Shown here: piece by piece, positions 8,003-62,317 of the stretch
Position numbering within the stretch: position 1 is the first letter of the stretch
How the letters are laid out: each line of letters opens with the position of its first letter
Assembly: GCA_021234155.1 (NCBI GenBank)
Contig: JAJEKV010000054.1
Coordinates: forward strand, 4,697,962-4,761,961
Length of the DNA stretch: 64,000 nt
Reading direction: 5' to 3'
Source: Isoetes taiwanensis
Lineage: Eukaryota > Streptophyta > Lycopodiopsida > Isoetales > Isoetaceae
Notes under the pieces: model-generated
The model's input: only the letters and a program-made list of their open reading frames with translations
What the model was told of the DNA's origin: nothing
The model's database searches: none
Made by a program: the position numbers and the translations under genes

Positions 8003-11000
8003 TATATGCTTGATTTGAGGCGTGAGTTGGAGCTCGATGGGTTGGAGGAGCTAGAGGGAAAGACTTTTGTTTTTCTTGGTGAAAAGAAATTGCCATTGTC
8101 CAAGAGGCAAGAAGATAGACATAAATTTGTAGCAGACCAGGTTCTGATAAGAATAGTAGGTTGTGAAGATCAAGATGGGCACCCCAAGGTTGGCGATCAT
8201 CCCAAGAAAAGAAGAAGACTAGTACTTTCCTCGAGGTTGAGGAAGAGATCAATGTAGACGACTATACTGGTTGAGGTTGAAGGGGTAGGGGTAGATGGCA
8301 TTGGTAAAGCTGGTGAAGACTTTAATGTAGCTTGTGAGGCACCCGAATTTGCTAGGTTGCTTTCCAAGAAAGCCTCAACAGCTCAAACAAACAGGTGGAA
8401 ACATGCCTATAGGAAGTACAAAATGAAAATGAAGAGTAATGGCAAAACAGACCGATTTGAGATTATGTCCATGGATGTAAATGGAGTGGCAGTTTTCAGT
8501 TTGTGGTGTGTAGAATGTGAAATGAAATATGGCAAAGGGGAGAAGATATGATGTATAATTTCACCCTTCGGCACTTGGAAACCAAGGAGCACAAATTGAA
8601 CTTCTTAAAACATAGACAAGGTCTTGAAAATAATGCAGATAGTGAATCAACTCTTAAAAGTCATGAAGAAGTTGTGGCTGAGAATAGGGCAGCAGTGGAG
8701 CTTTGCATGTCAACAAAAGTCACCCCATTTGTTGAGCAATATCAAGTAAAGTTTGAGTTGTTTGAGGACACTATAGGAGGCTATGCGAAGAGTGAAGAGA
8801 TTTGCATTAAGTGTATGACCTGCAATAGGGCCCTTCTTCTATTTCCAAATAGAGGGGACCTAATTGACAACATGAAGGAACATATTAAAAGTAATAGACA
8901 TGTTACTGCTAAGGAAAGGAAAGAGAACAAGGAGAACAAGTGCAATGAACCAAAAAAGGTATGCACACAAAAAGGAAGTCAATGGCCCTGGGCAAAAGAG
9001 CATGCTTACTTATTTCACCAAAGGTAGTGCTTAAATGTTATTGACAACAAAATCTTAATGGCTAACATTTTTGTTATTTCATGCAGCTCCTTCAAGCATT
9101 GTAAATGTTGAGTCACAAGCTAGTTCTTCAAGTAAGTTTTTCGCACCTCTTCAATATCTCTTTTATCCATAAATGCTGGAGGTATGATGCTTTTCTTCCT
9201 ATTTGTTTCATTTTCGTCATAAAAAAAACAGGAAGTGAGTATTTGGCTTCCCTTTGTTGGGGTTTTTGGCAATTAGAGTATAGGTATGGTAATAAGAAGA
9301 GGGATTTGAGGCCTTATCTAGATGATTCAAAGGCTGGTTATTGTTGGTACTCTGAACCAAAGCTCAAAGCAAAGTTTCAGATTGGTGATGAGGTAGTTGA
9401 GGTTGATGGAGCATTTAGGCATGTGAGCTGTTGTAGAGTCAATATAGATGGTAAAAGGTTTCCAAATTTCCAATGTTCATATTGTGCATCAATTCCCAAA
9501 GAGAGGGACTTTCGTATGAGAGTATACAGACAAAATGGAAATACATTAGAGAGAGGTCAGCGTGATACAAAGACAAAGACAAGGGTAGACTTTCTTACAT
9601 ATACAGAGCTGGTTAACATGGCTAAGGACAAAGAGGCTTGAAAATAGATTCTTGAAGAAGGAGTTGACTTTCTCAAAGAAAAGAAATGTGGCTTTGTCTG
9701 TGAAGGTTAGAACCTTAAGAGAAAGTTTGAGTGAGTCGATGAATAGAAAAGATGTGAGGAAGTTTTGCAATGACATAAGGGAGGCTCACTCACAAGGAAA
9801 GTTTGATGGTAAAGCAGCCTTATGGAACTTCCTTATTGACATTGCTCAGAACATTTTGAGGCCGGGACATAAGAAACGTTATAATCAGACCACTAAAGAA
9901 TTGTTTGAGACCATTAGAATTTGGGGTGGAAAGAGGATGCATAATTTCTTAACCATGAACTTCTGTGGTCCTAGTTTATCAACCACAATGCGGTCCTAAA
10001 AAAAAATTTTACTTACAGGGTTGGTGTAGTGGAAGCAACATTTATTCATTTAGCAAATGTATATGCCAAGCATATGGCAGATCTTGGCTTAAAAGCTGGA
10101 TGTATTCCCACTCTTGTTGCAGAAGATGAAACAGTCATAAAGAGGTCTGTATATTGGAATGCAAAGGACGACTGTTTGGTAGGTTTTTGTGGCATTTTGG
10201 AGAACCATGCATGTGATCCAAGTTTCATTGTGCAGGTTGGAACTGGTGAGGCAGGTTATAAGAAGATAGTTGATGCTTTTGAAAAGAATGTTATAGCACA
10301 CTATGCTCGTGTTTTCATTATCAATCCATTGCATGCACGTCTTCCTAAGCTTGTCTTGGCCATACAACTAACATGCAACAAGTTTGATAGTAGAGCAGTG
10401 AGAGCTCAGTGGGAAACAATACAAGTTTTTTGGGACTTGCATTTGAGGCAAGTTTTGGGGCCATTAGTTGGCCATAGCTCGGATGGAGATGCACGTAGAC
10501 GGTGTTGCATGCTGGAAGATTATACAAGTGTGAAGGATGCAGGAACAAGATACGGAATTCCGTGGGAAGGTTGGGTGTTTACTGCAGCAAAGAGGAAAGA
10601 TTGCAGCATTCAAGGCTTGCATGATCAGGATTTCATACACAATGGGAAGAAGTTAATCAACCCACTTGATAACGCAGCTAAGAGACTCTATTTAGGTGAA
10701 GATCTAGCCACACTGAATGACATTTGGCACGTCTTCCATGCTTTCCAAGGAGAACATGGTCTTCAAATTGGAGATGTAGAAAGGAAGGATAGACAAAATT
10801 GGAGGGCAGCCCAACGGATTGCTTCACGGAAGGTTCAAGCTTGTCTACATAAACTACAAGATCCATCTAATTCTCCTCCAATGCGGACTCTTGGAACTGA
10901 AACCTATTGTTCAATTGTGGCCTTATATATTGACATATTCCTATCACCCCATATGGGCCTATGGTCTCGTGTCAAGGCAAAGATCTCTGCCTCATCATTC

Positions 11001-12300
11001 TTCTCGTGTAATTGCTCATTGTGGTCATGTTGCTTATTGTGGTCTCATTGGCTTATTGCTAAGATTTTTGTTTGGTTTGTTGCAATCTAAAAGGTTTTGG
11101 AGGCTGTGGATAATTAGGCATCCAACACACACTTTGAAGATGAACTTTATAAGCCGTGAGACTTTTCTGGACATACAGTTATCATGTCATTTTGCTGTGA
11201 TGTTGATAAGATATTTTAGTGAAAAATGCAATGATATTTCTCTTCCCTTGAGTTGCACGGCCCGATGGATACTGTGAAAATTTTTTTTAGTAAAGTGGGC
11301 GGCATGGTCCAAAATGAAAGGTCATATATCAAAAGTGCAGACTTGCTTGAAAACAACAAGTGCTTTGAATAGAGTGGCGAGTTCCGTGTTGTTGGGAAAT
11401 TGTTGTTCCTCGCTACCCATTTGAAGCGGGGAAAACATATGGCGTGTTTTAGAAAAGAAGGTTGGACTTGATGGTAAGGAAATGGGTTGTGATCTAGGAG
11501 ATTACAAAGATGGTAGACAATGTAGATAAAATTGTGCATGCTTTAAAGGAAGGCATGAAAGAAGCATGGGGGATGTGTTTGAGAGTTGGCATTTGTTGTG
11601 AAGAGACAGAACTCGACACATGGTGGAATTGTCCTTGGAAGCACGAAGACTATTTTAACAAGAACTACCTCCAAAGAATTAGATACAACCGAAGTTTGAA
11701 GATGAGTCCGATCGAGTTGAAGTGGAGATTGAAAATGAGGGTTTCAAGGCTTGGCTGCAAAAAACATTGAGGAGATAGCAGCAGTGATGGAGTTAAGACA
11801 TACACTTGATGCCATGGTGGATGAGGCGAGCACCCAAACCAAGTGAAAGTTGAAAGACTTGTGAAGGTAGACAATAAAGAAGTCTACAAGGCCACTTTAG
11901 TCATCAACTTAATGGGAATCCTTGGCTCTCGAAGGATAGACTTACCAAAGTTAAGACTCATATTGTATTGGATGAAAAGAACAAGCGGATCAATGCAACC
12001 ACTTCTCTTGGCATTGGCTCACGATTGTCAAAGTGTTCTTTGAGGTAGAAACCGAAAAAACGTAAGGGTGTCAGGTTAGTGCAAAGCGTAAATTCTTAAA
12101 GAGAACTTGGTATTTGGGAAGGATTCGAAAGTATTCAAGGAAAGTTGGTAAGGGCTGGAAGGAAAGTAGGGAAGCAATTGATCTAAGTTCCGCACCATCC
12201 TATTTGGTAGAACTGAACTTGGCATGGTATAACGAAAGCATAAGTCTAAAAAAAAAATGTTGGTACACATTTGACTTGTCGACAAACATAGCAATATCAT
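8003..12300 (+). pseudogene. Transposase-like gene with zinc finger, decayed and frameshifted
   Basis: A run of plus-strand frames appears to belong to one dead gene. Frame 8548-9027 has a C-x2-C...H-x4-H zinc-finger-like segment (IKCMTCNRALLLF...HIKSNRH). Frames 9232-9641 and 9652-9999 follow, with splice-like boundaries near 9025-9110. Frame 10029-11090 is the conserved core: it contains VAEDETVIKR, VGFCGILENHAC, IINPLHARLPK, GHSSDGDARRR and DQDFIHNGKKLINPLD. Homologous-looking text continues in changing frames through WWNCPWKHEDYF (about 11.6 kb) to about 12.3 kb. The acidic blocks EDET, SDGD and DQDFIHN could hold catalytic acids of a DDE/D-type transposase, and DQDFIHNGKKLINP loosely recalls the D..H..K..N block of P-element/THAP9 proteins. 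That link is inference. Stops and frameshifts after 11.09 kb show it is inactive. Confidence 0.55.
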
Positions 12301-25769: not shown

Positions 25770-25813
25770 AGAAATGTTCGCGGCGGCCTTGGCCGCCGCG
25801 ATAAATTTCTTGT
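25770..25813 (+). repeat. 44-bp GC-palindrome module, copy 1
   Basis: A perfect 10-bp stem with a TT loop (CGCGGCGGCCTT then GGCCGCCGCG, 25779-25800) is embedded between AGAAATGTT and ATAAATTTCTTGT. The same 44-bp unit occurs in reverse at 46583-46626 and 53306-53349. A version lacking the palindrome is at 58877-58902. Sequence on both sides diverges at once. Confidence 0.85.
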
Positions 25814-29300: not shown

Positions 29301-29490
29301 GCCTTACGCACGAAATTTCCACAAATACTTGCATCGGCCGCCGATCCTCATCCATCTAGAATTGTAAGAAGAATGTGCTTCATTAATCTTACCACAGTTA
29401 GACGACCTTCATTTTGCCTCAGAATTTATATCCCGCCTCACTAGAACCAGCTTCCCAACTCAGATTTGGGTCATCAGAATTTCTCCAAGA

Positions 29491-30642
29491 ATGTCTACTC
29501 CGACTAGCAGCCCGGTTCAGACAGGAAGCGCATATCCAACAGCGCTGAATTACAGGTTCAATGCAAGCATGGCAATAATAGTAGTGGTTTTGGTGACAAC
29601 GTTTTTCTTTCTGGGTCTGTTTGTGCTGTATGTGAGAAGATGCAACAGGGATAGCGATGTGAGGGCAGATGGGTCGCTGCAAAGGGCGTACTGGCGGGAG
29701 AGGGAAGGGGTGGGAGTGGAGCCTGAGATGGTGCAGAAATTACCTCTCATGAGATTTGCGTCTGTAAAAGGGCGGAAGAAGGGCAAGGTCGGATTTGAGT
29801 GCGTTGTCTGCCTGGTTGAATTTGAAGAAGAGGAAAAGCTTAAGCTGCTCCCGACCTGCGGCCACTCTTTCCATCCCCAATGCATCGATATGTGGCTTCA
29901 ATCCCACACCACATGCCCCCTTTGCAGATTTAGCCTTGTCCCCTTAGAATCTGCTCCACCTGATCCCAATTTGCAAGCGGATCCTCAGTCTGTAGAAACA
30001 GGGGAACCCCAAGATCAGACCATCCCTGTTTCTATCATTCGCACCCTTTCTCGTAATTCTGAATCCTTCAAACAGGCAGTTCAGAACCTCGAACACTCCC
30101 CCTTGAGGAAATCTGATATGGGTTCTCCCTCAAACCCCAAATTGCCCCCCAGAAGCCCTCTTTCTGCTGAAGAATCTCTTCGCAGAAACCGTATGATTCT
30201 TCTTCGCAGTGGTTTAAGTCGATCTGTTGGTCATAATAGCATTGCCAATCGACCCAACTGGGCTGAAATATCTGAATTTGCTACTAAAGACCCCAGTTCT
30301 GGTGCCGGATCTGTGATCATTAACATTGATCCTGTAGTAGGTGAAAGAACAAGAAACTGGAGAGAAATTAGCGGCCTTCCAGCTACTCCTGAGCATTTTG
30401 AAGAAGAGGAAGCCGAAAAACATTCCGGATTTTCATTCAAAAGGACATTCTCTTTGCGCAGATCTTCTTCAGATGGCAAGACAATCTTTACTTCCAATGC
30501 AAGGCTGTTCACTGGAGATCAGAGTGCTCCAACTCCTCAATCTCCTGCTTTACAAGATAACAAATTCATTCCAGCTCTTACAAGGAGTCTCAAGAAGCTT
30601 GTTGGCAAAGATTTTCCTCAAACATCTCCTGCCAGACCTTGA
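29491..30642 (+). CDS. ATL-type RING-H2 E3 ubiquitin-protein ligase
   Basis: This intact single-exon gene encodes 383 residues and fits the plant ATL family, membrane-anchored E3 ligases that carry ubiquitin from an E2 to target proteins. A short N-terminus is followed by one hydrophobic helix at about residues 28-48 (IIVVVLVTTFFFLGLFVLYV) and basic residues RRC. A conserved pre-RING stretch follows (KLPLMRF, in place of the usual GLD block), then the RING-H2 domain with ligands C104, C107, C123, H125, H128, C131, C142 and C145. The tryptophan in CIDMW matches the E2-contact residue of the family. The long Ser/Pro-rich tail contains NWREISGLPATPEHF and FKRTFSLRR, seen in several longer ATLs. 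The first ATG in frame gives the expected short extracytoplasmic N-terminus. The 3' part is duplicated downstream. Target and pathway are unknown. Confidence 0.93.
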   Translation: MSTPTSSPVQTGSAYPTALNYRFNASMAIIVVVLVTTFFFLGLFVLYVRRCNRDSDVRADGSLQRAYWREREGVGVEPEMVQKLPLMRFASVKGRKKGKVGFECVVCLVEFEEEEKLKLLPTCGHSFHPQCIDMWLQSHTTCPLCRFSLVPLESAPPDPNLQADPQSVETGEPQDQTIPVSIIRTLSRNSESFKQAVQNLEHSPLRKSDMGSPSNPKLPPRSPLSAEESLRRNRMILLRSGLSRSVGHNSIANRPNWAEISEFATKDPSSGAGSVIINIDPVVGERTRNWREISGLPATPEHFEEEEAEKHSGFSFKRTFSLRRSSSDGKTIFTSNARLFTGDQSAPTPQSPALQDNKFIPALTRSLKKLVGKDFPQTSPARP

Positions 30643-43321: not shown

Positions 43322-45215
43322 ATGGCTTCAATGCTGGAGTCTGCGTGGCTGGTATGCTCTGCCAAATATTCCAGTTGTTTTAGCAAATTGAGTTTCCTTA
43401 TGCCATCTCTTATTTGGATTTATCATATTGAATTGCTTGTGCTTTGTGAAGTTGCCAATGATGTAGATTTTTGAGGTACATAAGCAGGATGAATCTATTA
43501 CTGAGAATTTCTGATACTATTTAAGGCAGATTCAGATTTTGGTTATAATGAAAGCTTTTACTGTTTGGGATACTGCACATTCATACTTTTAATGTGTAAC
43601 CTTTACACCTTCATTCATTATCACTGAGTTCTCCTCAGATATTGAAATAGAGTACTTAATGCAATGCTAACTACCATGTAAACTGATGATTTTGCAGTAT
43701 TTGACGACCAATTTTAGCGATTTCCAGCTAGCATCACTGGGGAGCTTTTTCATTCATGAGAGTGTCTTTTTTCTGTCTGGGATTCCTTTTCTCTTGTTGG
43801 AAATGTGGGGTTCAACAAAGTATAAGATTCAGGTAGCAGGTCTGCTGCATATGTTCTTTCATTCTTATGTTGCATGCAAATATTGTTGATGATAGTCAAA
43901 TTTTTGTTAGATGCTGTACGGCCTTTTTTAAGCTTAACTATGATGGTAATTGAAGATGCATGCTCATTTAAACCCAGCCCTATCATGCTTTCCTGCAAAA
44001 TTGGAATGGTGGTGTTTAGGAGGAATATACTTCATGCTTAGTGGTATGTTTACTTCAACTTGCAATGCTATGTGCAGGGAAAGCTCAACACTCCTGCTGC
44101 TCAGGAGAAGTGCATATTAAGGTTGATAGCCTACCATACCTGCGTAAATCTGCCCCTAATGGTGGTGTCGTATCCGGCATTCAAGTATATGGGTTTTACA
44201 AGTGCGTTACCATTTCCTTCATGGTAAAGTTGTCTGCTATTCCGATGTAATGATTATTTGTATGATGGAAATCTGCGTAAAGTATGTATTCTTTTCGATA
44301 GAGGTGCAAAACTACTGGAATTAAGATGAGAGGAGATTAGTGAAGAGAGAAGGGTTTCCTTATTCATTTGTGATCTCAGGCAGTGGGGTGAATTTTCATC
44401 TTTTCTGCATGAAAGTCACTACTTTAAAAATGATTTTGTAATCACTAAATTGCCAAACTAGTAATCAAATGTTTTCATTTTTTTCTGCAGGAAGACTATT
44501 ATATTTCAAATAATTTCATACTTCATTCTTGAAGACTTCATATTTTATTGGGGGCATAGACTTCTTCACACGAAATGGCTTTACAAGCATGTTCATAGTG
44601 TCCATCACGAGTATGTTTTCAATGAAGTTCACGCATTGCTTCTTTACGCATCATTCATTGACAAAATGTATCATTCAGATATGCAACACCATTCGGTTTG
44701 ACATCAGAATATGCTCATCCAGCAGAGATCCTTTTTCTTGGTTTTGCAACCATTTTTGGTCCAGCTATTACAGGTCCTCATTTGTTTACATTATGGCTCT
44801 GGATGAGTCTTAGAGTCCTGGAGACTGTGGAGGCACACTCTGGATATGATTTCCCATGGAGCCTCTCCAGATTTTTACCGATATATGGCGGGTATGTATT
44901 TGCCTTTGTCTGTGTATATATGTGGTTTCTTAACAAGAATAATTTTTTTCTGCTTTTAATTGTGTGTAGAGCGGATTTCCATGATTATCACCATAGACTT
45001 TTATATACAAAGTCAGGAAATTATGCTTCGACCTTCACATACATGGACTGGTATACAATATGTCATTTGAGTGGCTTCAGTTATCGTTCATGTGATGTCG
45101 TAACATATTCTCCCCATATTATGCCAGGATCTTTGGAACAGACATAGGTTATCGGAAGCTGAAGGCATTGAAATTTGATTCACAAATAGACACCAAGATG
45201 GAGAAATCTGATTAG
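43322..45215 (+). CDS. SMO2: Sterol C-4 methyl oxidase, plant SMO2 type (4alpha-methylsterol monooxygenase)
   Basis: The gene has seven exons: 43322-43351, 43698-43832, 44078-44223, 44491-44610, 44679-44891, 44970-45050 and 45128-45215. All have GT/AG junctions in consistent phase and together give 270 residues, close to the usual SMO2 length. The product belongs to the membrane-bound fatty acid hydroxylase family. In the ER it oxidises a 4-alpha methyl group of 24-ethylidene-type sterol intermediates, using a di-iron centre and cytochrome b5. The three histidine boxes are present: H126-x3-H130 (GHRLLH), H139-x2-HH143 (HSVHHEY) and H219-x2-HH223 (HDYHH). The stretch LTSEYAHPAEILFLGFATI and the end DWIFGTDIGYRKLKALKF are diagnostic of SMO. 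Hydrophobic helices flank the boxes. No lesion was seen, so it should be functional. SMO2 rather than SMO1 is chosen on length and end sequence. Confidence 0.95.
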
Positions 45216-46529: not shown

Positions 46530-46555
46530 CGAAATGTTAGGGTAGGCCACATTTC
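46530..46555. repeat. Inverted repeat arm, partner at 50967-50993
   Basis: CGAAATGTTAGGGTAGGCCA plus CATTTC is the reverse complement of 50967-50993 apart from a single-base gap. The pair crosses, rather than nests inside, the 47.8/51.3-kb terminal inverted repeats. It lies 27 bases before the GC-palindrome module copy 2. Confidence 0.7.
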
Positions 46556-46582
46556 TTGTTATTATCATCTGTTTTACATCCT

Positions 46583-46626
46583 ACAAGAAATTTATCGCAG
46601 CGGCCAAGGCCGCCGCGAACATTTCT
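46583..46626 (-). repeat. 44-bp GC-palindrome module, copy 2
   Basis: In reverse orientation it equals copy 1 (25770-25813) except for one base in the palindrome stem (CGCAGCGGCC instead of CGCGGCGGCC). Flanking sequence is unrelated to copy 1. Confidence 0.85.
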
Positions 46627-47062
46627 CTTTTTCAAAACTGTGCAGTTGGACTCCAGTTAACGTCCAACATTCTCTTCTGCAATGGCCAAGTGATTCTAGA
46701 TTGATGTGAAGCAACTTCGTAAGATCTTACATTCTAACTCTAATTTAGAAATTACAAAATGGGAGAATATTTACCTTGCATGCAATTAGTGAAGCAGAAG
46801 AGAAGCGCTCACAATAGCTCTTAAAGTGCTCTCAATGCGTCGAGACAATAAGAAGGCCTTCTATTTATAAGATGGAGTTTTGTTGGATGATCGACACACA
46901 TGACTAATCTAGGGCTATATTTATGCCAAGTGCCTATATCACAACTCGCATGTAATCATTAATATCATTCGATATATATTTCATATCCATAATTATCCTA
47001 AAATGGATATCATTAAGATTCTATATATATTGGGATTGATATCTTCTAACAAATTTGCCAAT

Positions 47063-47306
47063 GGCCGCAATAAATGCAAAGTGCACACATGTCGTGCTTT
47101 GATAATTCGCAATAAATGCAAAGCGTATTAATGGCCGCAATAAATGCAAAGCGTATTAATGGCCGCAATAAATGCAAAGGGTATTAATAGCCGCAATAAA
47201 TGCAAAGTGCACACATGTCGTGCTTTGATAACTCGCAATAAATGCAAAGCGTATTAATGGCCGCAATAAATGCAAAGCGTATTAATGGTCGCAATAAATG
47301 CAAAAG
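47063..47306. repeat. Subterminal tandem array, GCAATAAATGCAAAG units
   Basis: At least seven copies of GCAATAAATGCAAAG alternate with CGTATTAATGGCC. A higher-order repeat of about 145 bases is visible because GTGCACACATGTCGTGCTTT recurs at about 47081, 47208 and 47546. Related units appear on the other side of the element at 51385-51520 in reverse and at 58343-58420. Confidence 0.85.
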
Positions 47307-47313
47307 ATATTGT

Positions 47314-47536
47314 GGGTCGCGAAGGTCCTGGAAGCGGGATTTACGCCGTTACACCGTAATGCCTGCGTTTGATTCCTCAGTCAAGCGCTCCTGTGATCCC
47401 AGTCAGTTTGCCACCTGCATCGACGCTTTCACCCGTTCACATAGGTTCTTCCAGGCGGTCCTCTTCCCTAGAGTTAGTTGATGCCATTGGATCCTCTTTC
47501 TAGGAGTCAGTGGGACATCACCACAGGCGGTTATCT
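47314..47536. other. GC-rich island interrupting the subterminal array
   Basis: About 220 bases of balanced composition (GTCCTGGAAGCGGGATTTAC, CTTCCAGGCGGTCCTCTTCC) split the AT-rich array, which resumes on the far side with the same unit. It looks like an insertion. A plus-strand frame covers it but no domain is recognised. GGTCCTGGAAG and CTTCCAGG are inversely related. Confidence 0.45.
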
Positions 47537-47791
47537 AAAATGCAAAGTGCACACATGTCGTGCTTTGATAATTCGCAATAAATTCAAAGCGTATTAATTG
47601 CCACAAAAAAAATGCAAAGTGTATTAATGGCCGCAATAAATGCAAAGTGCACAAATCTGCCATAAATGCGATGAATGCAACGTGTCATCCTATGTTAATG
47701 CTCATATCTTCCTCCGCCATAAATGCTCATAAATGCCTCAAATCTGAAATTAATGCCCGCAATAAATGCTTTATAATCAATGAATGCACAC

Positions 47792-47932
47792 AATATTCGA
47801 GGTTATTAATGGCTGCAATAAATGCTTTATAATCAATGAATGCATACTGTACACGTGTCATGCTTTAGGAATTTTTAAGGAACAAAATAGGGGAGAACAG
47901 AAATTAGACACTCAATTACATAGGAAGGATAA
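47792..47932 (+). repeat. Left terminal inverted repeat of the tyrosine-recombinase element
   Basis: From AATATTCGAGG through TTAATGGCTGCAATAAATGC, TATAATCAATGAATGCA, AATTTTTAAGGAACAAAATA and GGGAGAACAGAAAT to ATAGGAAGGATAA, this aligns with the reverse complement of 51293-51425. A third, more diverged copy is at 58343-58500 in the same orientation. Confidence 0.85.
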
Positions 47933-48207
47933 TTTTCTATGACATTCCTGTGACACTTGGTAGGGCTAGTGCCAGCTGTCCTAGCTAGTGCCATCTGGCA
48001 GTGCTTGTGCCAGCACCAAAATTACATTCACCAAAATTACATTCACCAATACATTCAAAATTACAATTCACCAATACATTCACTTTCGATTCAAAATTCC
48101 AGTTTCCATTCAAAATTTGCAGTGCTTCAAGCAATCTGCAATTGATTACAAGTTTCATTAAAAAAAAAGAAGTTTCAATTGCCATTAAAGGCATTCAACA
48201 AGTTTTA

Positions 48208-50168
48208 TCAGATAAACTTATCAGAATTACAAGATTGCCCATGATATTTGTGGAGTGCATCTTTGATCTGACTGGCATCAGTGCACTGAATGAACAAACA
48301 GTTGCTCACACTTCCTAAGAAGGAAAATCCAGAAACGTGCTGCAGAGAATTACCAGTGACAAGAGTTTTTGACGATGGGATTTTCAAATCCAATAGAGCT
48401 TCATCAGAAATACCCTCATAGAAACTAGCATTTTCTTTGTCATTTCCAAAACCTGGAGCCTTAGAAACACAAATTGCTAGCATAGCAATTTCCTTCCCCT
48501 TAACTGAACTTGACTCCTTCACAAATACTTGCTGACCGTAACTGTCATTTGGATCAACAGCAACCAAAACACGAGATGGAGCAGAAGATGAACCAGCGCA
48601 ATCATTGATTTGTTTCTTCTCAATTTCAGCAGCTAACACTGATTCATAAGTCCTCGGAGCACCAGTTTTAGTAACTGGATTAGAGATAATGGACATAGCA
48701 GCACGCATCTGAATATCTTTCGTCCTGTCATACCTAAGAAACAAAAATTATGAACAAATTATAACATTATACAATCAGAAATTACTTTTCAGAAATTACA
48801 CAATCAATTTACTTTTCATACGCTTCAAGTGATCGATGCCCTGTGATTCTCATACCGACCTCAGCAGGAACACTTGCCATCGCCAATCGTGTAACAGTTG
48901 CAACGCGTCCAGATTTATTCGAGATCTCCCCATGATTAATTAAAGACCCCATTGTCTGAAGCCAAGATTTTATCATCTTCAGTCCAACTTTATTGGTGGA
49001 ATACCAGACCTGAAAAGCAACAATTAGTAATAAAAGTTGAATCTCAACCTAAGCAATAACATAAAAAAATTCAAACTACTTACATTTCCAGCAGGCCTGT
49101 TGATAGAAGTCAGAAACAAACTCCTAGGTTCATCATTATCTTTGGCAGGCATATGCCTAACATATTGCTTAAAAGTCATCACAAAATCTGCCTCATGCGT
49201 GCGAACAGGCTCCCTAAAATGACTGCTATCATATCTTGTTGCAGTTACCTGATAATTCTTACTCTCCCTCTCACTGTATTCTATAAACTCACCACAGTCA
49301 TCACTGCCAAGAGAAAGATCAGTATCTAGCAAATTATAAAGTTCTGTCGCTGCCCTAATCCCAAACCTTGAACAAAGGTAAAAACACAGACGTTTCTGAC
49401 AGCCACGATTAAATGTCATCTGATGATCCACATCTGCTAACAAATCCCTTTCTAAACTGAAACTGATAGAAGGTGCCCTAACAGTCTTAGTCCCAACACC
49501 TTGCACCCTAGATCTCCTGGCAGCTAACACAAAAGCATACGTAGCTCTAGTAAAGATTTCATTTGTAATTATATTAAACCTCACTTCCTGATTGCCTGTC
49601 TCTCCAATCCTTTTCTCTTGATGCTTCCTGATCATTCTTCCAATAGCCCTGTATAAAACACTAAGGCTGCAAACACAAACAGTCAGCATAAAACCAAATT
49701 AAAAAATTGCATAAAAAAGTTACCTGCCAGCGGGATACAGATCTCCATTCTTCTTTTTCACTTGAAGCATGAATTTCACCAGCATATCATATCTTCGATA
49801 GGAACACTAGTATCAAGACCAAATGCCTTCCTCCAATTATCAAAACGTTTTGTGGCCCAAATAGAGACCCCAATAGACCTATCCCGACCACCAGATTCTA
49901 ATTCCTTTATCAGTTCTTCATCCAAAGTTAAAAACTCATCCTTATCCTTATTGTCCACATTATACCAATCACTGTCCTTTACTTCAGCAGCAAACTCATC
50001 AATCTTATCAGAAGGAAAGGCTTCCAAAAACATATCAACGTCTTCAGTAACTTCCTCCTCATCAACACCAGAAAGAATGGCAAAGGAATGCCACGTCTCA
50101 GCAGCCATGTGATCATCTATGGCACTCTGATAATCTATAGCACCTAGCTGATCTATAGAAGCATCCAT
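48208..50168 (-). CDS. Crypton-like tyrosine recombinase (DUF3504 type), one small frameshift
   Basis: Four exons on the minus strand, 50168-49724, 49666-49084, 49009-48813 and 48733-48208, join in consistent phase with GT/AG introns. Setting aside one lesion they give about 581 residues. The N-terminal part has an acidic segment, then a core-binding-like stretch (SIWATKRFDNWRKAFGL). The catalytic domain shows the first arginine in FGIRAATELYNLL (about R251), the second in SGRVATVTRLA (about R376), H399 in ITGHRSLEAYEKY and the nucleophile Y408 in KYDRTKD. A lysine stands where the H of the H-x-x-R box is expected. About 170 residues follow the tyrosine, with no domain I recognise. The lesion is a 5-bp tandem duplication of GATAT near the end of exon 1 (about 49780), which shifts frame. 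The start at 50168 is preferred because the upstream in-frame part is hydrophobic and unlike the family. Such proteins cut and rejoin DNA through the tyrosine. Confidence 0.75.
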
Positions 50169-50966
50169 CTTTACAGGCCAGACAAAGAACAGAACCTTAT
50201 AAGCGATAATGTTCACAAAGAAAAATAAAAAGGCCATGAAAACAAGGTATTTAGCCATCACAGACCGATCTACACGCGAAATATTAGGGATAACGCAAAA
50301 AGCTCAAGATAGAAGCACAAAGTTTTGCACGGAACATACTAATCTGCATAGCAAATAAGTGGATATACATAAGAAAGGTCGGGATAGGCTTGCAAGAAAG
50401 CACAAAAGCAAGAAAGAAAGGTCGGGATAGCCTTGCATGTTACTCCAACAGACAGAACTGTAAAAAAAGCACACGGATCAGTAATGTTTCTCGTAGAAAC
50501 ATGGAAAAATAACAAGAACTCGTGATTTTACCTGAAGATTTCGCCAAAATAGCAAGATCTTTCGCAAGAAATGATACTCTACAGTTGCATGTACCTCCAG
50601 GCGACAAAATCTGCAAGAAAAACATGTTAGGACGCATGATTTCACAAAAATCATGTCAAAATCGAATGATCATCATCAAAATCGAAAGATAATCATAGTA
50701 AACCTCTGAAAATACTGTCAGAAACTGCTGAATCAACACAAAAGATGCTGGCGCCACTGAAAATGCTCCAAACTCGAGGCACTACCGCCAAAATCAACAC
50801 CAGACGGTCCGCAACACACAAAAATATGATCCAGCAAGCAAAAAAGTCGACGAGGAAGCTAAGCGGCTAACGGACCGCCATAGCCGACCTCGCCATAGCC
50901 AAAAATGTGGAGACTGTCCAAAAATTTTGTCCCTAACATTTCGTCCCAAAATTCGGCCACACGTGC

Positions 50967-50993
50967 GAAATGTGGCCTACCCCTAACATTTCG
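50967..50993. repeat. Inverted repeat arm, partner at 46530-46555
   Basis: GAAATGTGGCCTACCCCTAA plus CATTTCG is the reverse complement of the left arm with one extra C. A further CCTAACATTTCG string occurs upstream at about 50933. It sits directly beside the large GC-rich foldback. Confidence 0.7.
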
Positions 50994-51000
50994 AGGGGGA

Positions 51001-51098
51001 ATGTTCGGGCATAGGCCATTACGCGGGGTGCGGCCAGTGGCTCGCCCTCCGGGCTCGCCAAGTGGCCTTACCCCGCGTAATGGCCTACGCTCGAACAT
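51001..51098. repeat. GC-rich foldback hairpin (98 bp)
   Basis: ATGTTCG and TAGGCCATTACGCGGGGT on the left pair with ACCCCGCGTAATGGCCTA and CGAACAT on the right. Weaker pairing (GGCCAGTGGCTCGCC against GGCTCGCCAAGTGGCC) continues inward to a CTCCG loop. This would form a near-continuous stem of about 45 bp. It lies upstream of the recombinase gene, inside the right terminal repeat. Confidence 0.8.
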
Positions 51099-51292
51099 TA
51101 CCCCTAACGTAATATCGGCCAAACATTCATTACATTCCGTAATGCACGCCTGTCAAGATTCTGGGTATAAGTTTTCTCGGTGGCGCACTCGCGGCTCTGC
51201 CACTCGTGCACTGCCTCGTCTGGCAGAGCCACCTTGAAAAATTATATGTCAGAATCTTTTCCAGATGTGTCTTCCATAGTACATAACCAATA

Positions 51293-51425
51293 TAATCCTT
51301 CCTATCTAATGCAGTGTCCATTTCTGTTCTCCCTTATTTTGTTCCTTAAAAATTCTTAAAACATGGCACGTGTGCACTCATTGATTATACGGCATTTATT
51401 GCAGCCATTAATAAACTCGAATATT
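51293..51425 (-). repeat. Right terminal inverted repeat of the tyrosine-recombinase element
   Basis: In reverse it reads like the left repeat at 47792-47932, with single-base changes and an 8-base gap near TGCACACGTG. Beyond it, TATGGCGGCCATTAATGAAC and TCGAATATTTCGTGA units form the right subterminal array to about 51530. Confidence 0.85.
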
Positions 51426-51530
51426 TCGTGAGTCGTGACGTTAGATGTCAGGGCATGTATGGCGGCCATTAATGAACTCGAATATGGCATTTATGGCGGC
51501 CATTAATGAACTCGAATATTTCGTGATGTT

Positions 51531-61836: not shown

Positions 61837-62274
61837 TTACACCATCCCCACTAATTGCCCCCCTTGATAGGAGAACTGGGGTGACTTGGGCTGCCATAAG
61901 GAGGAAACCACCAAAACCTTGGTCTTCATCAAGTTGACTCGCATACCAGTGTTTTGACGGAAGCTACTTAGTGGGTCTAGGTGTTGCATACTAGTTGGTG
62001 TATGGAGCAAGAGAATAACAACTGCATGTAATAATTGTCTAATGATATGATGAGCAAGATGCACTACCCCACCCTTATGTTGGACAAACCAATCTTCAAA
62101 CTGGTCAATATACAAACAAAACAATGTAGGGAAGAGTGAAAAACCTTGACGTAGCTCCACATTATTGTTGACAAAATTATCTAATGGGGACATGTGCGCA
62201 GACACATTTTCATGAAGCCTATACACAACATTGAGTGATTTTGTGGAACATCTAATTGTGACAATACATATCAA
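61837..62274 (-). pseudogene. LINE reverse-transcriptase remnant, minus strand
   Basis: The 145-residue frame reads like an RT core: ELRQGFSLFPTLFCLYIDQF (normally RQG-PLSP-LF), then a region where the YADD box is destroyed (LLHAVVILLLHTP), then TGMRVNLMKTKVLVVSSLW. It resembles the remnant at 54.6 kb in order and wording but lies in the opposite direction and lacks the catalytic aspartates, so it is inactive. Confidence 0.7.
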
Positions 62275-62317
62275 CCATGTTATCCATCATAGGTATTTCA
62301 TTTGTTATACTTGCCCT

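Follow-up and report, generated by a model that had tools for sequence, protein, structure and literature searches.

A probable Crypton-like tyrosine-recombinase transposon of the lycophyte Isoetes taiwanensis and the inverted copy of its joined ends

The 64,000-nucleotide stretch of Isoetes taiwanensis DNA analysed here (hereafter the window; assembly GCA_021234155.1, contig JAJEKV010000054.1, positions 4,697,962 to 4,761,961 of the forward strand) carries on its minus strand a four-exon gene for a predicted tyrosine recombinase (YR), located in an interrupted copy of a Crypton-like element that spans 46530-51113, both of its cores included. Exon 1 (49724-50168) encodes an acidic N-terminus and the start of the core-binding, QRICH1-like region, exon 2 (49084-49666) the remainder of that region and the start of the catalytic domain with R254 and K286, exon 3 (48813-49009) the catalytic box K376-R379 together with H402, and exon 4 (48208-48733) the catalytic Y411 and the C-terminal region. 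The three introns are all bounded by GT-AG, and the 584-residue reading displays an R..K..K..R..H..Y layout (R254, K286, K376, R379, H402 and Y411, with roles assigned by eye) in which K376 occupies the position of the second histidine. The four exons, clean splice sites and recombinase residues described in an initial annotation, made from the letters of the window, are borne out by this gene model. The same annotation took the copy to be near-intact, which does not hold: a frame-breaking deletion lies within exon 1, with a stop at codon 131, and this exon measures 445 nt in the window, versus a length of 464 nt that 8 of the other 20 aligned copies share.

Among the 21 aligned rows, copy L012 is the only one to combine an open frame (590 amino acids) with all splice sites. 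The ratio of nonsynonymous to synonymous substitution rates (dN/dS) of L012 against the 20 other rows ranged from 0.13 to 0.62 (median 0.35), while that of the window against L009 was 0.87, as expected when both copies are broken. A profile comparison with DUF3504, the check proposed at the outset, returned collinear matches of the L012 protein to QRICH1 (E 0.01) and DUF3504 (E 8.9e-4), yet with values short of those that Pfam curators demand. DUF3504 was also matched, weakly and at E values up to 1, by three of the five family members. All three PHROG matches of the window piece are integrases with weak E-values, and tblastn against plasmids produced weak matches in 125 records (best E 0.03); for the 20 of these records that were listed, 17 matches fall on annotated integrases or recombinases and 3 on regions without annotation. 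Searching viral and prokaryotic contigs by pattern did not turn up a confirmed relative. We consider it very probable that the encoded protein is a YR, because independent matches and catalytic residues agree, no one E-value being decisive, and probable that it belongs to the DUF3504 (Crypton) lineage. A protein search of the genome (2679 candidates, 120 of them scored) gave 215 exon-level matches, and many of those listed are 41-71% identical and free of stops; judged by sequence, the putative YR loci of this genome are a large and diverse set, from which four families were examined.

Using the gene as query against its own genome (1,658,258,908 bases in 1110 contigs), we obtained 51 matching stretches from the 40 of 116 candidates that were scored, and 20 places besides the window were fetched. 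One of them, L017 (G000:C941), shows the flanks and the nested insert of the window again, with an uneven identity of 71-100% per 200-base bin; it was retained in the alignment and in the dN/dS comparison, and not treated as an independent insertion. With L017 set aside, the 5' end was found in all 19 other copies and both ends in 18, L015 being left out of the 3'-end counts as its 3' end was not located. The end motifs are 3027-3332 bases apart in these copies, corresponding to an element of about 3.2 kb, and the shared termini, 5' TTAGGGG and 3' CCCTAAC-ATTTCG, vary little. They map to window positions 51107 (5') and 46530 (3'), so that the boundaries of the window copy are those given by the 18 two-ended copies. 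On the minus strand, the 5' core ATTACG occupies 51108-51113, with the element's TTAGGGG beginning at 51107, and the 3' core ATTTCG, the element's own hexamer, occupies 46530-46535. The 3' tail (46583-46530) is split from the rest of the element by a 1.35-kb insert (46584-47929). Many places in the genome (G000), L043 among them, match just the final ~126 bases of the 3' end of the element, suggesting that shorter non-autonomous relatives may exist; in L043 this 3' end lies a few tens of bases from a target belonging to the repeat family struck by L009.

To characterize the target, joined flanks (100 + 100 bp) of 15 of the 18 copies were used as empty-site queries (L011, L024 and L026 were left out), with 40 candidates scored per query, so that a missing empty site is no proof of absence. 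Contiguous, element-free paralogous matches were recovered for nine copies (L009, L010, L012, L013, L018, L020, L021, L022 and L027); a match of L016 in C1110, which spans the junction by 30 query bases and adjoins another copy of the element, was not counted. The 32 empty sequences read (14 + 9 + 9) contain the hexamer region once, with few substitutions and a 12-base gap in one L021 paralog. The empty site of L009 reads TATTTTGTTCTTA in 10 of 12 sequences, and its occupied site reads ATTTTG|TTAGGGG...CCTAAC|ATTTCG|TTCTTAA. Where empty sites could be read for an insertion, the 5' junction retains the hexamer of the target and the 3' junction bears that of the element; this origin of the 5' hexamer is established from other copies and not from the window copy itself. 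The target is thus one short T-rich core, about ATTTNG. The search for a target duplication that the initial annotation had recommended yielded exact ends with only this hexamer at both of them, single in the empty sites read and with no duplication beyond it. When the 18 independent 5' hexamers were compared with ATTTC, they agreed at 3.11 of 5 positions, versus 1.31 under a null drawn from window sites ending in G, and none of 20,000 draws was as high; L024 and L026 were dropped here as duplicates of L022 and L011. A single core without further duplication is what integration by a YR predicts.

The left end of the element has the layout P-loop-P'-Q', where P is the 5' end and Q the 3' end, and P'Q' is the inverse of QP, that is, of the joined ends. 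In the window this internal inverted copy lies at 50967-51041 on the minus strand, where it forms the left-end hairpin with 51107-51042, and it matches the joined ends with 68 identities, 6 mismatches and 4 gaps across the junction. In the same family (family 1), P'Q' runs across the junction in 17 of the 18 other copies, the region being missing in L024, and the matches listed include 20 places where the 5' end and the inverted copy are adjacent, several of them outside the 18 copies. Further families carry it as well. In family 2 (YR 44% identical to that of L012), P'Q' matches at 72/75 in L091 and less well in L090 (53 identities, 6 mismatches, 15 gaps); the values for family 3 (YR 41% identical to L012) are 69/74 and 74/79; and in family 4 (YR 55% identical over part of the protein) they are 56/63 and, more weakly in L095, 61 identities with 8 mismatches and 11 gaps. 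At the DNA level, families 2 and 3 show about 70% similarity and are hence not independent. For family 2 the ends were placed by eye; for families 3 and 4 many end positions were scanned and the best kept; the P'Q' scores of these two families (62-131) compare with at most 29 for random pieces that were not scanned and at most 31 for those given an equal number of tries.

Folding the joined ends as single-stranded DNA gave z values of -16.3, -21.0, -20.7 and -15.6 for one member per family (60 shuffles each; the L013 junction used held one extra T), and these predictions allow the joined ends to form a single long hairpin whose stem includes the core. The element has no long terminal inverted repeat (TIR) of its own, its symmetry consisting of short inverted arms beside the core and the inverted 3'-end copy in the left end. 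When the joined family 1 ends (3' followed by 5') served as query, one near-full-length match in direct order came up, in C1055, where the 3' region of one element and the 5' end of another are fused with one ATTTTG between them (101 identities, 15 mismatches and 4 gaps in an alignment covering 118 of the 120 joined bases).

We regard it as highly likely that the window holds a broken copy of a Crypton-like DNA transposon of ~3.2 kb that moves by joined-end recombination and has the YR as its sole recognised gene. The recombinase would cut at the cores and join the two ends, and we infer that the product is probably a circle, with the core between inverted TACCCTAA and TTAGGGGTA arms; this joined-end core would then be recombined by the YR with a hexamer resembling it at another place. 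A possible role of the left-end hairpin is to draw the ends together or to offer the core in folded form. A bolder version, which appears unlikely to us, would have a single-stranded circle in which the joined ends and the internal copy fold into a hairpin that offers a double-stranded core to the YR. Both this folding of a single strand to an active core and a role of the internal copy like that of the internal complementary region of DIRS-1 are speculative and drawn by analogy. In integron attC sites and in attP of phage CTX, a single strand can form a hairpin whose stem contains the YR core; the likeness consists of the core in a hairpin stem, the Isoetes case being a eukaryotic transposon in which the use of a single strand is hypothetical.

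Several results weigh against this interpretation. Concerning the protein, all five aligned proteins have lysine at the second catalytic histidine, and the histidine of the GH motif is replaced by glutamine in all four aligned proteins from other loci (L074, L075, L077 and L078). Both Pfam matches of L012 (DUF3504 and QRICH1) fall under the curated cut-offs, and other open reading frames (ORFs) of these elements gave chance-looking Pfam matches with E values down to 0.0013; matches of similar strength arising by chance slightly lower our confidence in the Crypton-like transposon. In family 4, the 431-residue ORF overlapping the YR match remained without a match in Pfam, a scan of NCBIfam gave just two weak, unrelated matches, and searching the PDB by sequence and by profile gave none. 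AlphaFold models of two exons were unusable (mean pLDDT, the predicted local distance difference test score, of 40.2 and 37.6). Concerning movement, the one head-to-tail junction is equally explained by insertion beside a resident copy, the joined-end search for family 3 included no such junction among the matches listed, and the joined-end searches revealed a genomic head-to-tail junction and no circle. Concerning the sites, 6 of the 15 copies queried (L014, L016, L019, L023, L025 and L028) had no empty site that was counted, the occupied L022 has 10 extra bases beyond its 3' junction, and ATTTCG, present at 15 of the 19 3' ends read (the window plus 18 copies), was found with search patterns that themselves required G before TTAGGGG and ATTT at the 3' end.

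For this part of the interpretation, the alternative is that the hairpin and the internal copy are accessory binding or promoter sites acting as double-stranded DNA, or leftovers of rearrangement, with no role in end joining. We judge this possible, if somewhat doubtful. The hairpin has its place upstream of the gene, beside the core the internal copy is unlike the ends, and the overall covariation term of family 1 is slightly unfavourable (+0.91); on the other hand, complementarity is maintained despite sequence differences between families, and among 15 sequences of family 1 changes on both sides affect 8 of the 33 predicted pairs.

The presence of the internal joined-end copy in four families also recalls DIRS-1, whose internal complementary region matches the joined ends. 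The element could then be a DIRS-like retroelement derivative that moves through RNA with a reverse transcriptase supplied in trans, which we find improbable: the aligned copies still contain the three introns, some with damaged splice sites, and the best family matches are DUF3504 and QRICH1. Moreover, the 10 ORFs scanned, out of 20 of at least 100 residues from four elements, gave no match to reverse transcriptase and none to the methyltransferase-like or RNase H domains of DIRS elements; those outside this Pfam scan include several YR exons.

Still less probable is a DDE cut-and-paste transposon with short inverted ends that carries the recombinase as a passenger or as a domesticated host gene. 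A 27-nt inverted match does link the 3' end of the element with its left end, and Crypton fusions carrying a transposase are known, such as MarCry-1_FO (PMC3212892). Nevertheless, the empty sites read show no duplication past the shared hexamer, the inverted unit corresponds to the joined-end sequence rather than to a simple terminal repeat, and dN/dS indicates constraint on the YR.

Finally, the 135-140-bp inverted repeats that the initial annotation regarded as the ends of the element do exist and flank the gene (47792-47936 and 51425-51289; 145 columns, 84.8% identity, E 7e-41), but we reject them as its termini almost completely, since the 18 other copies end at the equivalents of 51107 and 46530, away from both repeats, an outcome that the initial annotation had itself named as refuting, the left one interrupting the element as the end of a dispersed family and the right one lying about 180 bp outside. 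The plant Crypton-like YR element that was proposed together with these long inverted ends is retained; it is multicopy, and its Crypton (DUF3504) kind is probable.

Helitrons insert between A and T, start with TC, finish with a hairpin followed by CTRR and produce no target duplication. The insert of the window (46584-47929, minus strand) has the features of a non-autonomous Helitron-like insertion: it begins A|TCCTTCC, its 5' end being the left inverted repeat, and finishes with a hairpin and TTTCTTG|T, so that CTTG stands in place of the consensus CTRR. Nineteen other copies of the Crypton-like element are without it and read GAAAATTA|TAGGATG or near it, L017 being the copy that carries it, and no target duplication was seen at the sole site compared. 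With the 5' end of the insert as query, 346 candidates were obtained and 40 scored; 38 of these matches start at query positions 20-37, near the terminus, and just the window and L017 run into the Crypton-like element. The 3'-end query gave 967 candidates, of which 40 were likewise scored. TC is preceded by A in 8 of the 12 starts read, two of the remaining ones sharing one flank, and CTTG is followed by T in all 10 ends read. Since the family of the insert start is dispersed and the insert is missing from uninterrupted copies, the left repeat is, from these alignments, the 5' end of a Helitron-like family nested inside the element. The right repeat corresponds to a second Helitron-like 5' end (51296-51431, plus strand, with A|TC at 51295/51296), whose membership of the family is deduced from its 88% identity with the left repeat. 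From 58497 to 53307 on the minus strand runs a possible Helitron-like element (about 5.2 kb) with ends like those of the insert, 58497 being a third such 5' end, and further Helitron-like 3' ends lie near 25812 and 58900 on the plus strand. Nested Helitron-like ends can therefore place inverted repeats around a gene, which calls for caution.

Elsewhere in the window, open frames resembling a transposase-type protein occur at 8521-11090 (plus strand); of three pieces compared with Pfam, one had a match at E 0.083 that looks like chance, and the other two had none at E values up to 0.1. Two ordinary plant genes are represented on the plus strand by a RING-H2 finger protein gene (29368-30642) and by an exon of an enzyme of the fatty-acid-hydroxylase family (44662-45147). 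A reverse transcriptase fragment at 61837-62286 (minus strand) matches RVT_1 at E 0.0026, under the cut-off. Scans of the window with Rfam at gathering thresholds and for tRNA genes returned nothing.

Kojima and Jurka (2011; PMC3212892) record Cryptons from animals, fungi, oomycetes and a diatom, describe them as having short direct repeats and lacking TIRs, and place Chlamydomonas under plants in a figure legend. The Isoetes element resembles the CryptonF, CryptonS, CryptonA and CryptonI groups of that account in having a YR, probably of the DUF3504 type, as its sole recognised gene and short direct repeats at both ends (4-6 bp there versus about 6 here). It differs in its lycophyte host, in a protein that stays under the Pfam cut-off, and in a left-end hairpin that includes the joined ends in inverted form, a feature unmentioned in the portion of PMC3212892 consulted. 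PMC4157794 reports a survey with three plants among the outgroups that recovered one Crypton, from a sea anemone, besides a likely contaminant, and describes internal repeats of DIRS-1-like elements that couple with the terminal ones. The Isoetes element is alike in this coupling and differs from those YR retrotransposons in lacking a recognised reverse transcriptase and long TIRs of its own and in having intron-bearing copies. An automated table in PMC6294377 gives 24 Crypton hits of 1719 bp in Dracaena. Within the literature covered, which included the accessible parts of PMC11630846 and PMC6294377 and excluded bioRxiv and most subscription journals, we found no report of fern or lycophyte Cryptons, and a term search of the main texts of two Isoetes genome papers found Cryptons unmentioned.

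The analysis thus places in a lycophyte many related putative YR loci, at least one of them with an open frame, together with empty sites and clear cores at the targets. The way in which Cryptons multiply is, to our knowledge, an open matter, and the internal joined-end copy kept in four families is a concrete, testable feature for it. If the bolder version were true, a folded single strand would let a Crypton copy itself while the donor site is kept, integron cassettes and phage CTX would have in this element their eukaryotic counterpart, and the internal copy would tie Cryptons to the layout of DIRS elements.
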